Below are positions 9,360 through 63,750 of a stretch of 64,000 bases of DNA, piece by piece. The notes under the pieces are model-generated. The model ran no database searches and was not told where the DNA came from. It saw nothing but the letters and a program-made list of their open reading frames with translations. The DNA is from Phytoactinopolyspora limicola. Lineage in GTDB: Bacteria > Actinomycetota > Actinomycetes > Jiangellales > Jiangellaceae. Positions within the stretch are counted from its first letter, which is position 1; the number at the start of each line of letters is the position of its first letter. The position numbers and the translations under genes are program-made. The stretch spans positions 62,001 to 126,000 of the forward strand of contig NZ_JAAOEN010000011.1 of NCBI RefSeq assembly GCF_011320225.1, in the 5' to 3' direction.

Positions 9360-11138
9360 ATGTCGGTTCGCCAACCGGGCGCACGCCTACTGGCGGCGGC
9401 TGTGGCAGCCGCACTGGCCGGGTCTATCACCGCGCCGGCCGCCACGGCCAACCCCACCTCCCCGGTGGCCCCGGCAACTCAGGTGCAGGCATCCGTACCC
9501 GAACTGACCTGGGGCCCCTGCGAGGACGTCCCTGACGAGACGGACGAACCCGACGGCACCCACCCGCCGGACCAGATGGACCAACCCACCGGCACCCACC
9601 CGCCGGACCAGGCCAACCGGTTCCGCTGCGCTACCGCCGAGGTCCCCACCAGTTACGCCGAACCCATCGGCGCGGCTACCACCACTATCGCGCTGATCAA
9701 GCTGCCCGCCGCCGATCCGGATGCTCGCATCGGCACGTTGTTCACCAACCCGGGTGGCCCCGGCGATTCCGGCGTCGACTTCGTCCGCCGCTTCGCCGAC
9801 ACCGCCTTCACCGACGACGTCCGGGCCCGCTTCGACATCGTGGGCTTCGACCCACGCGGCGTCGGCGCCTCCGACCCCGCGACGTGTTACCGCACCGAGG
9901 AGGACGAACACGCGGCCCTCGCGAACCTCCCCCATTTCCCGGGCAATCTCGCAGAACAGCGCCTCTACATCCGCGAGACCGCCCGGCTGGCGGCCCATTG
10001 CCGCATCATGTCTCGCAGCCGGATCGAACATGCGTCCACGGCCAATGTCGCCCGCGACATGGACCTCCTGCGTCAGGCCGTCGGCGACGACCAACTCACC
10101 TACATCGGGTACTCCTACGGTTCCTACCTTGGTGCCACCTACGCCAAACTCTTTCCCACCCGGGTGCGGGCACTCGCCGTCGATGGCGTCATCGTGCCCG
10201 ACGACTACGCGGGCCGGCCAGGCACCGAAGACCGCTCCACCGCCGAACGGATGGGCCAAGGACCGGCCGCCTCCGAGACGTTCGGCGAGTTCCTCCGTTT
10301 GTGTGCCGAGGCCGGACCGCGGCGCTGTGATCTGGCCGGATTGGGCGACCCGGCGGCCGTCGTCGACGACCTCTTGGAGCGGTTGGCCGCCACTCCGATC
10401 GACGTCGACCTACCCGATGGCGGGGCGGCCCGGCTGACGTACGCCGCTGTTGTCGCCCATACCTACATGGCGCTCTACGACCCCCGTGGATGGCCGACGC
10501 TGGCCAGCTTCCTGGCGCAGCTTGCCGCTGAACAGCCGAAGCTGAGTGGATCCGCCGCCGAGTTGCTCACCCGGTCCGGCACACCCGGACCGCAGCGACG
10601 TCTGCGCGGCCAGGACTACCCGTCCGTCGGCGGCTCGCTCGCCTCCGCCTGCGTCGACACCGGCAGCACCGGCCAACCCAACGGCTTCGCCGAACGCGCC
10701 GACCTCGCCGACCAACAGGCACCCCACTTCGGCCGGTACCGGGTATGGCTGGCATTGCCCTGCGAGTATCTACGGCTCACCGACGCCGACACCTACCTCG
10801 GGCCGTGGGATCAGCACGTACCCACGCCGGTACTCGTCGTCGGCACCAGATTCGACCCCGCCACACCGTACTCCGGCACCCCCGCCTATGCCGCACACTT
10901 CCCCGATGCCCGGGTCCTCACCGTCGACGGCTGGGGCCACACCACAGTGGGCAAGAGCACGTGTGCCACCGACGTGATCGGCGAGTACCTCGTCGATCCG
11001 GCCACGGCAGCCGACGGCACCACCTGCCCGCAAGACACCATGCCCTTCAGCCACGTCACCACCGACGGCGACGACGTCAACGTCGATGGGTGGCAGCCGG
11101 GCGAATCCGACGGCGGCTGGACCAACAGCCGTGGCTGA
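9360..11138 (+). CDS. Secreted alpha/beta hydrolase, tripeptidyl aminopeptidase (TAP) type
   Basis: This 592-residue protein has a signal peptide (basic start, then LLAAAVAAALAGSITAPAATA). The catalytic triad of an S33-type peptidase is visible: Ser252 in GYSYGS, Asp499 in TRFDPATP and His527 in GWGHTT. The last two lie in a TAP-like C-terminal domain. It is expected outside the cell, releasing N-terminal peptides. A low-complexity linker after the signal peptide repeats THPPDQ twice. ATG 9360 follows GAGGGAG. It is followed closely by the M20 amidohydrolase gene on the same strand. Confidence 0.9.
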   Translation: MSVRQPGARLLAAAVAAALAGSITAPAATANPTSPVAPATQVQASVPELTWGPCEDVPDETDEPDGTHPPDQMDQPTGTHPPDQANRFRCATAEVPTSYAEPIGAATTTIALIKLPAADPDARIGTLFTNPGGPGDSGVDFVRRFADTAFTDDVRARFDIVGFDPRGVGASDPATCYRTEEDEHAALANLPHFPGNLAEQRLYIRETARLAAHCRIMSRSRIEHASTANVARDMDLLRQAVGDDQLTYIGYSYGSYLGATYAKLFPTRVRALAVDGVIVPDDYAGRPGTEDRSTAERMGQGPAASETFGEFLRLCAEAGPRRCDLAGLGDPAAVVDDLLERLAATPIDVDLPDGGAARLTYAAVVAHTYMALYDPRGWPTLASFLAQLAAEQPKLSGSAAELLTRSGTPGPQRRLRGQDYPSVGGSLASACVDTGSTGQPNGFAERADLADQQAPHFGRYRVWLALPCEYLRLTDADTYLGPWDQHVPTPVLVVGTRFDPATPYSGTPAYAAHFPDARVLTVDGWGHTTVGKSTCATDVIGEYLVDPATAADGTTCPQDTMPFSHVTTDGDDVNVDGWQPGESDGGWTNSRG

Positions 11139-11169
11139 GCCCTGGCCCGAGAGCAGGCATACTGCGGAC

Positions 11170-12354
11170 ATGACGTCTCTGATCGAAGCGGCCCACGCGC
11201 AGTCCGACCGCACCATCTCCTTCCGTCGCACCCTCCATCAGCACCCCGAGCTCGGTCTCGACCTCCCCGTGACCCGCAAGGCCGTGCTCGAGGAGATCAG
11301 CGATCTCGGCCTCACCATCCGGCTGTCCGAGTCGACGTCGGCTGTTGTCGCCGAACTAGAGGGCGCATCCGACGGGCCCACCATGATCCTGCGTGGCGAC
11401 ATGGACGCGTTACCGCTGCGGGAAGACACCGGACTGCCGTTTGCCTCGAAGGTGGACGGTGTGATGCACGCCTGCGGCCACGACACCCACGTGGCGATGC
11501 TGGCCGGGGCGGCTCGGTTGCTGGCTGCCCGCCGCGACGAGCTGGCCGGCCGGGTGTTGTTCTTCTTCCAGCCCGGCGAAGAGGGCCACCACGGTGCTCG
11601 GTATGCGCTGGAAGAAGGTCTACTCGACGCCGATCCGGTGGCCGGCGCGTTCGCCCTGCACATCACGTCCCAGTACACCAGCGGCACCATCAACCTCCGG
11701 CCCGGGCCAATTCTCGCCGCCGCCGACGACTTCCGCGTCGTCTTCACCGGCCGTGGCGGACACGCGTCGGCGCCGCACAACGCCAACGACCCCATCCCGG
11801 CGGCGTGTGAACTCGTCACCACCCTGCAGGTGGCGCTGAGCCGCCGGGTCAGCGTGTTCGACCCGGCGGTGCTGACGGTCGGCCAGATCACCGCCGGCAC
11901 CACGAGCAACATCATCCCGGCGACGGCTGAGATACGGGGCACCATCCGCACCCTGTCCGAGGAGAGCCGCGAGGACGTCATCCAGCGTCTCCGTACGGTG
12001 GCCGAGGGGGTGGCCGCCGCCCACGAGCTGAGCGTCGAGGTGGAGGTTGTCCCCGGGTATCCGGTCACCGTCAACGATCCCACTTTCGCCGAGTCGGTGC
12101 GCGAGACCACTACCTCCCTGCTTGGGGCGGAGCGGGTAGCGCACATCGACGAGCCGCTCATGGGCGCCGAAGATTTCTCCTACGTCCTACAGCGGTATCC
12201 AGGAACCATGGCGTTCCTGGGCGCTGCCCCCGACGGCACCGACCCGGAGCAGGCCGCCCCCAACCATTCCAACCTGGTGGTGTTCAACGAGGCGGCGCTG
12301 GCCACCGGCGTCGCCGTTTACGCCGCCGTGGCCCTGGACCACCTCCACCCATGA
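11170..12354 (+). CDS. M20 family amidohydrolase (hippurate hydrolase/aminoacylase-like)
   Basis: The 394-residue cytosolic metallohydrolase shows HACGHDTHVAML with the first metal ligands, QPGEEGHHGA with the catalytic and metal-binding Glu residues, GRGGHASAPH of the dimerisation domain, and GAEDFSYV near the end. These place it in the M20D subgroup that cleaves N-acyl or N-aryl amino acids. ATG 11170 gives the usual N-terminus (RRTLHQHPELG follows). It lies 31 nt after the secreted peptidase gene and may act on its products. Its TGA is inside a perfect palindrome shared with the convergent gene. Confidence 0.88.
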   Translation: MTSLIEAAHAQSDRTISFRRTLHQHPELGLDLPVTRKAVLEEISDLGLTIRLSESTSAVVAELEGASDGPTMILRGDMDALPLREDTGLPFASKVDGVMHACGHDTHVAMLAGAARLLAARRDELAGRVLFFFQPGEEGHHGARYALEEGLLDADPVAGAFALHITSQYTSGTINLRPGPILAAADDFRVVFTGRGGHASAPHNANDPIPAACELVTTLQVALSRRVSVFDPAVLTVGQITAGTTSNIIPATAEIRGTIRTLSEESREDVIQRLRTVAEGVAAAHELSVEVEVVPGYPVTVNDPTFAESVRETTTSLLGAERVAHIDEPLMGAEDFSYVLQRYPGTMAFLGAAPDGTDPEQAAPNHSNLVVFNEAALATGVAVYAAVALDHLHP

Positions 12355-12405
12355 TCATGAACACTTTGCCGGGTTATAACCCGGCAAAGTGTTCATGATC
12401 ATGGG
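12348..12405. terminator. Perfect 58-bp palindrome holding both convergent stop codons
   Basis: Positions 12348-12376 are perfectly complementary to 12377-12405 with no loop. The arm begins CCCATGATCATGAACAC and the centre is GGTTATAACC. The TGA of the M20 gene (12352-12354) and that of the FAD oxidoreductase (12399-12401, minus strand) occupy mirror-image positions in the arms. It is probably a bidirectional terminator without a U-tract. The outer 24 nt of each arm recur identically at 34323-34380. Confidence 0.8.
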
Positions 12406-13775
12406 GAGGGTGGGATGTTGTGGTTGGCGTGGAAGACGTTGTCCGGGTCGTAGCGGCGTTTCACCTCCCGGAGCCGATCCCACGTCCGGCCGGGGTAAGC
12501 GGCCTGGACCCGGTCCGGGCCCTCGTCGCCGAGGAAGTTCACGTACGGCGGCGCCGAACCGCCGCTCAATCCGGCCGCGAAGCCGCTCACCCAGGTGTCG
12601 CACTCGGGTTCCATCTCGGCCTGCTGGAACAACGAGGCCGCCATGACGGCGTAGCCGCGGTCGCGGTGGGCGAACGCGGTGGCGTCGGCGGGTACCCGCG
12701 CCACGGCGCCGCCCAGCGGACGGAACTGCACCACCGCGGAGAAGTCCGTCGCAGACCTTACCCCCTCCATGACTAGTTCGGCGGTGTCGTCGCCGATGTC
12801 GTCGAGGAACATCGACCGCGTCACGGAATGCACTGCCGGCCGTTCGTCGCCCGCGAACAGGTCCGCGTAATACCCCGGTTGAACCTGGTCCATCAGCGGC
12901 GTGGCGATCTTCCGGAACGGCGCCAAGGCCCGTTCGCCGTCGGCACCAGGCCCGGCGTAACACATAAACGCGAAGATGATCGGCGTACCGTGGTGCTCCG
13001 GTGGGACGAACGGCATGGGCGGCGCCTTCATCACGACGACCATCATGGACAGCTCTTCCGGGGCCATCCGGGCTTCGGCGGCGAACGCCCGGACGTTGCC
13101 GGCCGTGGCGGGCAGGGCGAGGAAACCGCCCACCACTTCCGGCACGTGGTGGAGGCGGAAGGTGAATCTGGTGACGACACCGAAGTTGCCTCCGCCGCCG
13201 CGCAGCGCCCAGAACAGGTCGGGATGGTTGGCCTCGTCTACCTCCAGGATCTGGCCGTCAGCGGTCACGACCTCAGCGGCCAGCAGGGAGTCGATGCTCA
13301 GTCCCTGCTTGCGGGTGAGCAACCCGATGCCGCCGCCGAGGGTAATACCACCGATGCCGACGCTGGCGGTGTCACCGAAACCAGTGGCCAGGCCGTGTTG
13401 TCCGGCTGCGGCGGTGTAGCTGCCCGCGGTGACACCGCCGCCGGCGGTGCCGATACGGCGGTCGGCGTCGATGTGGACGGTGTCGAGCGCGCTGAGGTCG
13501 ACCACGACGTCGCCGGACACACCATGCCCCGCCAGGCTGTGCCCACCACCTCGCACGGCGAGGTCGATCCCCGCCTCCCTGGTCATGGTGACCACTCGCG
13601 CGATCTGGTCCGCGCCGGTGGGACGCACGATCGCCGCCGGGCGCCGGTCGACCAGGGTCGCAGCGACCATCCGGGCGGCGTCGTAGCCAGGATCGGCTGG
13701 CGTGAGAACGGGTGCGCCGGCGTCGGCTCGGAGCCGATCGACGACGGTTGTAGTGGCGCTGGTGTGGGTGGTCAT
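12399..13775 (-). CDS. FAD-linked oxidoreductase, berberine-bridge (BBE) type
   Basis: The 458-residue protein has the PCMH-type FAD domain (RPTGADQIARVV, then AVRGGGHSLAGHG, where His79 is the usual covalent flavin ligand), a second FAD segment GGGIGLLTRKQGLSID, and a C-terminal BBE segment YVNFLGDEG...RYDPDNVFHANHNIPP. The second covalent ligand Cys of bicovalent members is not evident. It oxidises an unknown alcohol, sugar or amine. ATG 13775 has AAAGGA upstream. The divergent MarR gene and the dyad at 13835-13849 suggest that MarR represses it. Confidence 0.9.
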   Translation of the reverse strand: MTTHTSATTTVVDRLRADAGAPVLTPADPGYDAARMVAATLVDRRPAAIVRPTGADQIARVVTMTREAGIDLAVRGGGHSLAGHGVSGDVVVDLSALDTVHIDADRRIGTAGGGVTAGSYTAAAGQHGLATGFGDTASVGIGGITLGGGIGLLTRKQGLSIDSLLAAEVVTADGQILEVDEANHPDLFWALRGGGGNFGVVTRFTFRLHHVPEVVGGFLALPATAGNVRAFAAEARMAPEELSMMVVVMKAPPMPFVPPEHHGTPIIFAFMCYAGPGADGERALAPFRKIATPLMDQVQPGYYADLFAGDERPAVHSVTRSMFLDDIGDDTAELVMEGVRSATDFSAVVQFRPLGGAVARVPADATAFAHRDRGYAVMAASLFQQAEMEPECDTWVSGFAAGLSGGSAPPYVNFLGDEGPDRVQAAYPGRTWDRLREVKRRYDPDNVFHANHNIPPSP

Positions 13776-21384: not shown

Positions 21385-21447
21385 CTAGTGTGTCGCGCCG
21401 GAGACCCGCATCATTCAGACGCACGGGTCTCCGGTGCGACACACTAG
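21385..21447. terminator. Long hairpin between sigma factor and hypothetical gene
   Basis: Arms of 24 nt (21385-21408 and 21424-21447) match with one mismatch. The arm begins CTAGTGTGTCG and the loop is 15 nt. It starts 10 nt after the sigma factor stop on the minus strand, so it probably ends that transcript. A degenerate copy of the loop and right arm occurs at 13898-13929, upstream of marR. Confidence 0.7.
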
Positions 21448-23841: not shown

Positions 23842-23961
23842 GTGATCATTGCCGGATTTCCGCCCCAACCCCCCGTGATCGTTGCCGGGTTCGCGTCGCC
23901 AGAACGACGTAATCCTTGTTTTGATCACCCGAGGGGGCGGCACGAAACCGGCAACGATCAC
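23842..23961. repeat. Compound palindromic element between VOC and argP
   Basis: The main arms are 23875-23893 (starting GTGATCGTTGCCGG) and 23943-23961, 19 nt and perfectly complementary. An additional left-arm copy, GTGATCATTGCCGGATT, lies at 23842-23858. The TGA of argP (23958-23960, minus strand) is inside the right arm. It lies between convergent genes, so it is a likely bidirectional terminator. Confidence 0.7.
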
Positions 23962-25005: not shown

Positions 25006-25638
25006 GTGCTTCACCCCTCCGCTCTGCCCGGCGCCGCACCCGCCCTCGTCGTAGGTTTCGCCACCGGCCTCTCCCTGATCATCGCGATCGGCGCACAGAA
25101 CGCCTTCGTGCTCCGCCAGGGGTTGCGCCGCGAACATGTCCTGCCGGTGGTGCTCCTGTGCGCCACCGCCGATGCCGCCCTCATCACCGCCGGCATCGCC
25201 GGCCTCGGCGCACTGATCACCGCCTATCCGCAGGCTATGGAGGTCGCCCGGTACGCAGGTGCGGCGTTCGTCGCCGGTTACGGGATGCTCGCCGTGCGAC
25301 GAGCTCTGCGGCCTCAGGGCATGGCGGCCAGCGCTCACCAGCCCGCCCCGTTGCGTGCTGCGTTGCTCACCTGCCTGGCCTTCACCTTCCTCAACCCACA
25401 TGTCTATCTCGACACCGTGGTGTTACTCGGCAGTATCGGCAGCCAGTACGGCGACGGCCGGTGGGCGTTCGCGGCCGGTGCCACAGCGGGCAGTTTCACC
25501 TGGTTCTTCGCCCTCGGCTATGGCGCCACCCGGCTGACCCGCCTCTTCGCCCGGCCCGGATCGTGGCGCGTCCTGGACCTGATCATCGCCGCCATCATGT
25601 TCGCCCTCGCCGCACTCCTCCTCTTCTCCTCCCGGTGA
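25006..25638 (+). CDS. lysE: LysE/ArgO-family amino acid exporter
   Basis: The 210-residue membrane protein has about five to six helices and the family signature [20 protein letters not shown] near the start and [14 protein letters not shown] in the middle. It exports L-lysine or L-arginine. GTG 25006 lies 7 nt after a TACGGT -10-like box, suggesting a leaderless message. Expression is expected to depend on the divergent ArgP. Its TGA (25636-25638) is inside a perfect 68-bp palindrome. Confidence 0.92.
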
Positions 25639-25694
25639 TCATTGGCTTTTGACTACCGGATCCGGTAGTCAAAAGCCAATGATCACCGGGAGGA
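25627..25694. terminator. Perfect 68-bp palindrome at the lysE 3' end
   Basis: Positions 25627-25660 are fully complementary to 25661-25694, with no loop and centre CCGGATCCGG. The arm includes CGGTGATCATTGGC and AAAAGC-type bases. It contains the last codons and stop of lysE and ends about 37 nt before dnaG. It is probably the lysE terminator, isolating dnaG. Confidence 0.8.
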
Positions 25695-34322: not shown

Positions 34323-34380
34323 CCCATGATCATGAACACTTTGCCGTGCTATCGCCCGGCAAAGTGTTCATGATCATGGG
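34323..34380. terminator. Palindrome sharing 24-nt arms with the 12.3-kb element
   Basis: Arms 34323-34346 and 34357-34380 are perfectly complementary and begin CCCATGATCATGAACAC, identical to the outer arms of the 12348-12405 palindrome. Only the 10-nt centre differs (TGCTATCGCC). It lies 10 nt after the aceB stop, so it probably ends that transcript. Confidence 0.8.
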
Positions 34381-39194: not shown

Positions 39195-39318
39195 CGGTGA
39201 TCGTTGCCGGCATTCGGTCGCTCCTCTCTCGTGATCGTTGCCGGCATTCGGTCGCTATAGCGACCGGATGCCGGCAACGATCACCGGGCTTGGGGGCGGA
39301 AAACCGACAACGATCACC
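39195..39318. repeat. Compound four-arm palindromic element between ramB and sortase
   Basis: The core 39231-39284 is a 54-bp palindrome with one mismatched pair and centre GTCGCTATAGCGAC. An extra left arm lies at 39195-39221 and an extra, diverged right arm (CCGACAACGATCACCG) at 39303-39318. All arms share the GTGATCGTTGCCGG sequence. It lies between convergent genes. The rest of 39165-39342 shows nothing else. Confidence 0.75.
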
Positions 39319-48269: not shown

Positions 48270-48325
48270 CTTGATCAAGTGCGAGAAACTCCCGTCATAG
48301 CGGTGTTTTCTCGCACTTGATCAAG
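48270..48325. terminator. Hairpin between ROK kinase and DUF4037 gene
   Basis: CTTGATCAAGTGCGAGAAA (48270-48288) pairs perfectly with 48307-48325 around an 18-nt loop containing TCATAGCGG. The outer ten bases CTTGATCAAG are themselves palindromic. It begins 22 nt after the ROK kinase stop on the minus strand and probably ends that operon. Confidence 0.8.
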
Positions 48326-62664: not shown

Positions 62665-63656
62665 CCCTCGACTTCCTCGACTATCCCCACATGCAGCGAG
62701 CGTTGATCGCCGCGCTGCTCACCGGCCTCGCGGCGCCGGCCGTGGGCACCTATCTCGTCCACCGTCGGCTCGCGCTGATGGGAGACGGCATCGGCCACGT
62801 GGCACTGACCGGCGTGGCCGTCGGGCTGCTGACCGGCTGGGCACCGGTGTGGACGGCGGTCGTCGTGGCCATCGCCGGTGCGGTGACCATCGAGTTGGTG
62901 CGCGCCCATGGCAAAGCGTCCGCCGACGTAGCGCTGGCCATGTTGTTCTACGGCGGGATCGCCGGCGGCGTTCTCCTGACCGGGCTGGCCGGTAGTACTG
63001 CGGCCACTCTCAACACCTACCTGTTCGGCTCGATCACCACCGTGTCTCAAGACGATCTCTGGGTGATCGGCATCCTGGCCGTCGTGGTCATCGCGTTGTC
63101 CATCGGGCTCGGACCCCAACTGTTCGCGGTGTGCCAAGACGAGGAGTTCGCCCGCGCGTGCGGACTACCGGTGCGGCTCTACAGCATCATGATCGCCGTG
63201 ATGGCGGCGGTCACCGTCGCCGTGGCAATGCGTACGGTCGGCCTGCTGCTGGTGAGCGCATTGATGGTGGTGCCCGTGGCTACGTCGATGCAGTTGACTC
63301 GCGGTTTCCGGGCGACGTTCGTCCTGGCGCTGTCGCTCGGTCTGGTGCCGTCGCTGGCCGGCGTGGTCTTCTCCTATTACGCCGACGTCGCTCCCGGAGC
63401 CAGCATCGTCGTGACCGCACTCGTCGGGTTCGCGTTGGCCTGGCCTTTGGGCACCGCCCTGCGGCGACGGCGGCAGGCTCGACGGTCCAACGGGGAGGAT
63501 CCACGGGTCACCGGCACCCACGTCACGGCCGAAGACCACGCACACCAGCACGACGAGAACTGCGGCCATCCTGCCGTCGAGCACGGTGATCACACCGACT
63601 ACCTGCATGACGGCCATCTCCACGCCGCTCACGGCAAACACTATGACGAGCACTGA
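62652..63656 (+). CDS. znuB: Zinc ABC transporter permease with His-rich tail
   Basis: The 334-residue protein has eight to nine helices with LVHRRLALMGDGIGHVALTG, the family motif at the second helix, and DVALAMLFYGGIAGGVLLTG. The last 50 residues are a cytosolic His-rich tail (EDHAHQHDENCGHPAVEHGD and further His) that is longer than usual and may bind zinc on entry. It is translationally coupled to znuC. Its stop abuts a 32-bp-arm palindrome. Confidence 0.93.
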   Translation: MDFLTLDFLDYPHMQRALIAALLTGLAAPAVGTYLVHRRLALMGDGIGHVALTGVAVGLLTGWAPVWTAVVVAIAGAVTIELVRAHGKASADVALAMLFYGGIAGGVLLTGLAGSTAATLNTYLFGSITTVSQDDLWVIGILAVVVIALSIGLGPQLFAVCQDEEFARACGLPVRLYSIMIAVMAAVTVAVAMRTVGLLLVSALMVVPVATSMQLTRGFRATFVLALSLGLVPSLAGVVFSYYADVAPGASIVVTALVGFALAWPLGTALRRRRQARRSNGEDPRVTGTHVTAEDHAHQHDENCGHPAVEHGDHTDYLHDGHLHAAHGKHYDEH

Positions 63657-63750
63657 ACGGTGGAGGGTTTTACCGGTCAACGGTGGGAGGTAGTACCGGT
63701 TATAGCCGGTAGATCCTTCCACCGTTGACCGGTAAAACCCTCCACCGTTC
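63655..63750. terminator. Long inverted repeat at the znuB 3' end
   Basis: Arms of 32 nt (63655-63686 and 63719-63750), starting GAACGGTGGAGGGTTTTACC, are perfectly complementary. The 32-nt loop holds a second dyad CCGG-TTATAG-CCGG. The znuB TGA (63654-63656) overlaps the left end. It probably terminates the zinc operon. Confidence 0.8.

Follow-up and report, generated by a model that had tools for sequence, protein, structure and literature searches.

A perfect palindrome between two convergent genes of Phytoactinopolyspora limicola is one copy of a dispersed hairpin repeat

The 58-bp palindrome lying between an M20 peptidase/amidohydrolase gene and a FAD-binding oxidoreductase gene of P. 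limicola is one copy of a repeat dispersed between genes, mostly placed next to the 3' ends of genes and frequently providing the stop codon. In the repeat unit, a copy-specific outer stem (C-rich on the left, G-rich on the right) is followed inwards by a TGATCA collar, an inner stem proper to the species and to the repeat family, and a short centre. This repeat, called family A below, is one member of a wider set of hairpins bounded by TGATC[A/G], in which the stem differs with species and repeat family and the flanks are likewise C-rich on the left, G-rich on the right and paired copy by copy. The reading we prefer, to which we give an even chance of being right, is that of a hairpin repeat that has been spread, or made uniform, as DNA within each genome, residing mainly at 3' ends and probably blocking transcription from both sides.

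The palindrome occupies positions 12348-12405 of the window, that is, of the whole 64-kb stretch of DNA analysed, with its core, CATGATCATG...CATGATCATG, at 12350-12403. Its two 29-nt arms are 100% complementary with a spacer of 0 nt, so that the initial annotation of a perfect, loopless palindrome was borne out. It was also right about the two stop codons, which lie at mirror positions. The left TGATCA collar (12352-12357, plus strand) contains the TGA of the M20 gene at 12352-12354, and the right collar (12396-12401, minus strand) that of the oxidoreductase gene at 12401-12399. Domain matches agree with the gene identities proposed, PF01546 for the M20 gene (11086-12354, plus strand), PF01565 and PF08031 for the FAD-binding/BBE oxidoreductase gene (12399-13775, minus strand). 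The 12-bp centre (12371-12382) is partly degenerate, with the half-site GKGYNA. A C-rich left flank (12338-12349), within the final M20 codons, pairs imperfectly with a G-rich right flank (12404-12415), whose minus strand encodes the end of the oxidoreductase. Folded as RNA, the region reached −64.3 kcal/mol. The structure is far beyond chance, since its folding z-score was −12.2, none of 200 shuffled sequences was as stable, and the chance expectation for a 21-nt arm was 0 (100 shuffles of the 64-kb window).

A coding origin of the arms, which had been raised as the finding that would overturn a special role, was discarded: the arms are missing 3' of the M20 orthologue in all four congeners, and the called genes contain no copy. 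In one congener, G004, the M20 and FAD oxidoreductase genes (window 11086-13775) are not convergent neighbours but lie about 8 kb apart, and the junction at the palindrome has therefore been rearranged.

What the description of this single junction had missed is the high-copy nature of the sequence, with a second copy in the window and dozens in the genome. Across the whole 6.59-Mb genome, with up to 3 mismatches accepted, the arm CATGATCATGAACACTTTGCC gave 89 forward and 90 reverse matches; the reversed control pattern gave no match in the same search. Exact arm pairs numbered 62, and among the matches listed the centre of every exact pair was 12 bp long, when 4 to 34 bp were permitted. Pairs of the 15-bp outer arms, TGATCATGAACACTT, were counted 85 times, a few of those listed being changed symmetrically in the two arms, against 15, 15, 1 and 0 times in four congeners. 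P. halotolerans, P. endophytica and P. halophila carry family A arms, and the P. halophila copies show compensatory stem changes. All 72 distinct copies read carried both arms, some with mismatches. Both 21-bp arms were exact in 61 of these 72, a proportion in which diverged copies are under-sampled because copies were retrieved through an exact arm. One further pair, L093, was counted beyond the 72. The 6-kb stretches around L077 and L093, on two contigs of the same assembly, are identical throughout and probably represent a single place assembled twice. Segment duplication was rejected as the source of the copies, save for these two, identical over all 6 kb compared.

In the 61 copies with exact arms, positions 22 and 24 of the centre half-site GKGYNA are invariant, and position 27 was changed in 1 of 122 half-sites; variation is free at 23, 25 and 26. 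The two halves of the centre nevertheless agreed above expectation (0.90 vs 0.70, 0.84 vs 0.52 and 0.51 vs 0.37). The flanks differ among copies yet pair within each of them: a perfect run of at least 8 was present in 22 of the 72 copies, compared to 0.9% of mispaired flanks, and none of 20000 permutations reached the observed pairing. The flanks of the G004 hairpins also pair, to a lesser extent: their mean run was 3.4, and 5000 permutations gave no mean above 1.6. Neutral copying alone can hardly explain fixed arms together with free centre positions. Because the arms are invariant while centre positions vary freely, recognition or selection is suggested.

By gene context, the copies of this genome fall into 42 tandem, 20 convergent and 8 divergent, with 2 edge cases. 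Twelve were divergent by the first gene caller and 8 by the second; 8-9 of the 70 scorable copies lie in divergent spacers, 9 once the tmRNA gene at L083 is counted. At that locus (2536-2907), the copy stands in a divergent spacer about 94 bp upstream of the tmRNA gene. None of the 72 copies was inside a called gene, as defined by a home-made caller that overlooked at least this tmRNA and one gene end at L061, where a gene overlooked by the second caller extends 49 nt into the copy. Facing gene 3' ends were inside the element or within 51 bp of its edge in 74 of 83 cases, compared to 22 of 59 for facing 5' ends. Thirty-four of the 83 3' ends fall inside the element, and 28 are at the first TGA of the copy. 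Against background, convergent placement of the copies gave p 0.054 (20/70) and divergent placement p 0.023 (8/70, with L083 not yet moved). Of the 73 hairpins placed in G004, one within a called gene, 25 were convergent (114/625 background gene pairs, p 0.003) and 6 divergent (145/625, p 0.002). The position bias against background is thus weaker for the copies of P. limicola than for the G004 hairpins.

The window holds six places with TGATC[A/G]-type hairpins. Besides the palindrome these are a second family A copy whose centre is not palindromic (34323-34380), a family B hairpin with TGATCATTGGCTTTTGACTACCGG arms (25636-25685), an 85-bp TGATCG-type hairpin of the family E type (23876-23960), a cluster of TGATCG-type half-sites in the order forward, forward, reverse, reverse (39198-39316), and a TGATCA-bounded hairpin of a further family (48272-48323). 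Two other structures were noticed in the window, an imperfect palindrome without TGATCA collar at 63655-63750 (48-nt arms, 90% complementary, no spacer) and an inverted repeat at 21385-21447 (24 nt, 96% complementary, 15-nt spacer).

Across 1.2 Mb of sequence from G004, we counted 74 TGATCA- or TGATCG-bounded hairpins whose inner arms pair at 9 or more of 12 positions. They form families of near-fixed length (49-50, 50, 52, 57-58, 54 or 85-86, and 82 bp), the two lengths of the family E-type units, 54 or 85-86 bp, differing by about three helical turns. Under a 10/12 pairing test in G004, TGATCA gave 29 hairpins and the other 63 palindromic hexamers at most 4 each, this highest value belonging to TCATGA, which overlaps TGATCA; the control covers palindromic hexamers, and the non-palindromic TGATCG falls outside it. 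The hexamer itself occurs 501 times in 800 kb of G004, compared to 166 in one simulated sequence. Solitary TGATCA could not be used as empty targets: 332 of the 501 stand alone, and many of those listed resemble ordinary coding sequence.

The collar taken alone as a pattern matched at least 8 times in 20 of 22 genomes of the bacterial family. Of 371 genomes from elsewhere in the class, 16, with 10 family labels between them, reached that number. The reversed collar never gave more than one match in a genome, and was present in 9 of 393. Low collar counts outside the family are largely chance or coding matches. All 20 loci taken from four outside genomes, belonging to three other families, were hairpins with inner arms pairing at 9/12 or better, and a C-rich left and G-rich right flank was visible in many of them. 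In one genome, G050, total hairpin length ran from 48 to 59 bp. Spread by phage or plasmid was set aside, as no viral or plasmid carrier was present among the sequences searched. No exact family A pair was found in viral contigs; the loose collar pattern matched at least 120 viral stretches, and in none of 83 matches from 80 loci did the inner arms pair at 8/12 or better. No plasmid match was found. A search of the open-licence literature returned no description of these sequences.

We compared the sites occupied in P. limicola with their counterparts in G004. Some match in the G004 stretches existed for 24 copies, of which 14 were viewed and 13 scored, the other 10 being left out; L078 was dropped from scoring, its alignment ending before the gene end. 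G004 has a TGATCA hairpin at 6 of the 13 comparable sites, and at none of them is the stem that of P. limicola: another family A core is found at L024, L062 and L072, and a family B hairpin at L073, at window position 34325 and at L061 (3001). Unrelated hairpins were found at window position 12350 and at L085. The L061 (4126) site looks decayed, L083 has only CATGATTCGTG, and L057, L058 and L079 have no hairpin. As background, 84 of 921 gene 3' ends of G004 have such a hairpin within 150 bp. The binomial p of 0.0003 calculated for 6 of 12 sites is rough, since 13 sites were scored and L083 does not represent a gene 3' end. Among relatives, the L062 site carries a TGATCA hairpin in 3 of 6, each different in sequence, none in two others, and a single ATGATCATG in G021. 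The L073 site has one in 1 of 5 relatives, and the L083 site in 0 of 6. Because sharing varies in this way from site to site, inheritance is real for some sites and is not general.

It had been suggested that the palindrome acts as a two-way terminator. The 3'-end bias and the use of the element's own TGA agree with this; the tails, the divergent copies and the mismatches speak against a standard intrinsic terminator. A GC-rich hairpin and a 3'-end location are seen in most copies, with 8-9 of the 70 scorable copies divergent. Counting as a U-tract five or more T among 7 consecutive nt, no further than 30 nt away, we found one after the hairpin in 4 of 82 tails; over their first 12 nt the tails are 64% G and 8% T. 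No terminator-like site was found at the palindrome. In tandem copies, stem G-U mismatches numbered 37 in the sense and 36 in the antisense orientation, and flank mismatches 113 and 127, in a test of little power if mismatches reflect the family consensus. The lack of sense-strand bias and the scarcity of U-tracts both speak against selection for RNA terminators of the classical kind. Intrinsic (rho-independent) terminators are likewise stable hairpins at gene 3' ends, possibly acting in both directions, but the hairpins described here lack a U-tract in 78 of 82 tails, have an invariant stem, and are in some copies divergent. Known structured RNAs were rejected, no Rfam family having matched at its gathering score in the window or in 100 kb of G004; a permissive search gave only microRNA models, all below cut-offs, as any long hairpin is expected to do. 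An unlikely, though not negligible, alternative is a true class of terminators: the hairpins would be RNA 3' ends with a function, under selection where genes end and read by a genome-specific RNA-binding or termination factor; they would be immobile, with stems that alter when the factor alters. The 3'-end bias and avoidance of divergent spacers, the very stable fold, the TGATCA hairpin kept at orthologous sites though its stem changes, and the compensatory changes in P. halophila would fit such a class. The rarity of U-tracts, the balanced G-U mismatches (with the low power just mentioned), the missing Rfam match and the 8-9 divergent copies, one of them before the tmRNA gene, count against it. 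A protein-binding site was also proposed at the outset; like two-way termination and insertion at stop codons, it points in the right direction, given the 3'-end bias, the frequent use of the element's TGA and the high copy number, and the initial interpretation is in this sense partly supported. Sites for a nucleoid or domain-boundary protein reading both half-sites, whose specificity drifts and whose sites follow, seem to us improbable. The perfect symmetry, the indifference to orientation, GKGYNA half-sites varying only at fixed positions, and family E units about three helical turns apart (54 or 85-86 bp) speak for such a protein; half-sites of 21 to 29 bp exceed what a usual factor needs, the copy-specific pairing of the outer flanks is needless in a double-stranded site, the 48 to 59 bp of G050 are not helical steps, and no lone half-site occurred among the copies read.

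Transposition at stop codons, the remaining initial proposal, gains from the high copy number and from the 28 of 83 gene ends that use the TGA of the element, and, in a REP-type form, suffers from the lack of a Y1/RAYT transposase in all five congeners. REP sequences, BIMEs and REPINs, the last with their RAYT transposases, are short intergenic palindromes present in tens to hundreds of species-specific copies per genome. The present repeats resemble them as high-copy, species-specific intergenic palindromic units in inverted pairs with a short spacer. They differ from them by the strong stop-codon use of family A, by a TGATCA collar common to actinobacterial families and kept where shared sites differ in stem, and by the lack of a Y1 transposase: PF01797 was found in none of the five congeneric genomes, and in 5 of 14 genomes of a positive control set. 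A REP/REPIN-type element moved by a RAYT (Y1) transposase was on that ground largely rejected and appears very improbable. The search for mobilising enzymes covered the Y1 family. Clean pairs of filled and empty sites showing a target-site duplication were not encountered, and the repeats flanking the copies are inverted, not direct. One site alone came near to being empty, L083 in G004, and its sequence resembles a deletion scar no less than a target. Paired DNA uptake sequences of Neisseriaceae act as terminators and have species dialects. Like them, the repeats show genome-specific dialects and inverted pairs at gene ends; in contrast to them, arms are 21 to 29 nt long, paired in all 72 copies read, and called genes contain no family A copy. 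Single half-sites in large numbers, a trait of uptake sequences, were not seen (89 forward, 90 reverse arms). Stable stem-loops were reported to concentrate 3' of genes and in part to form repeat families (PMC1590033), a likeness to the present hairpins; the portion of that report considered here names new families for Yersiniae, Bordetellae and Enterococci only, and does not mention a TGATCA collar with interchangeable stems.

The preferred reading, a repeat spread or homogenised as DNA, would work as follows. Each genome would copy or homogenise its own units, which could face either way with respect to the gene beside them. Copies would persist mainly at 3' ends because they do little harm there and may help. 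There the very stable hairpin would block or end transcription from both sides. One insertion could end a gene arriving from either side, because TGATCA reads TGA on both strands. An element neutral to orientation and acting at the DNA level would be expected to show unbiased G-U mismatches, as was seen (37 vs 36). In a more speculative reading, which we regard as improbable, the TGATCA collars would be stable docking sites between which a putative enzyme swaps hairpin cores in the intergenic DNA of actinobacteria. If this were true, inherited sites would be overwritten in each genome by its own core families, and would form a palindrome cassette system at gene ends.

Instability would be expected of long perfect palindromes, but scores of them are present in this genome, and its relatives carry equally many that differ in sequence. 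Having a collar in common and exchangeable cores at inherited sites makes it testable how the intergenic palindromes of bacteria spread and remain uniform without a known transposase. The finding also bears on how transcripts end without U-tracts in high-GC actinobacteria.
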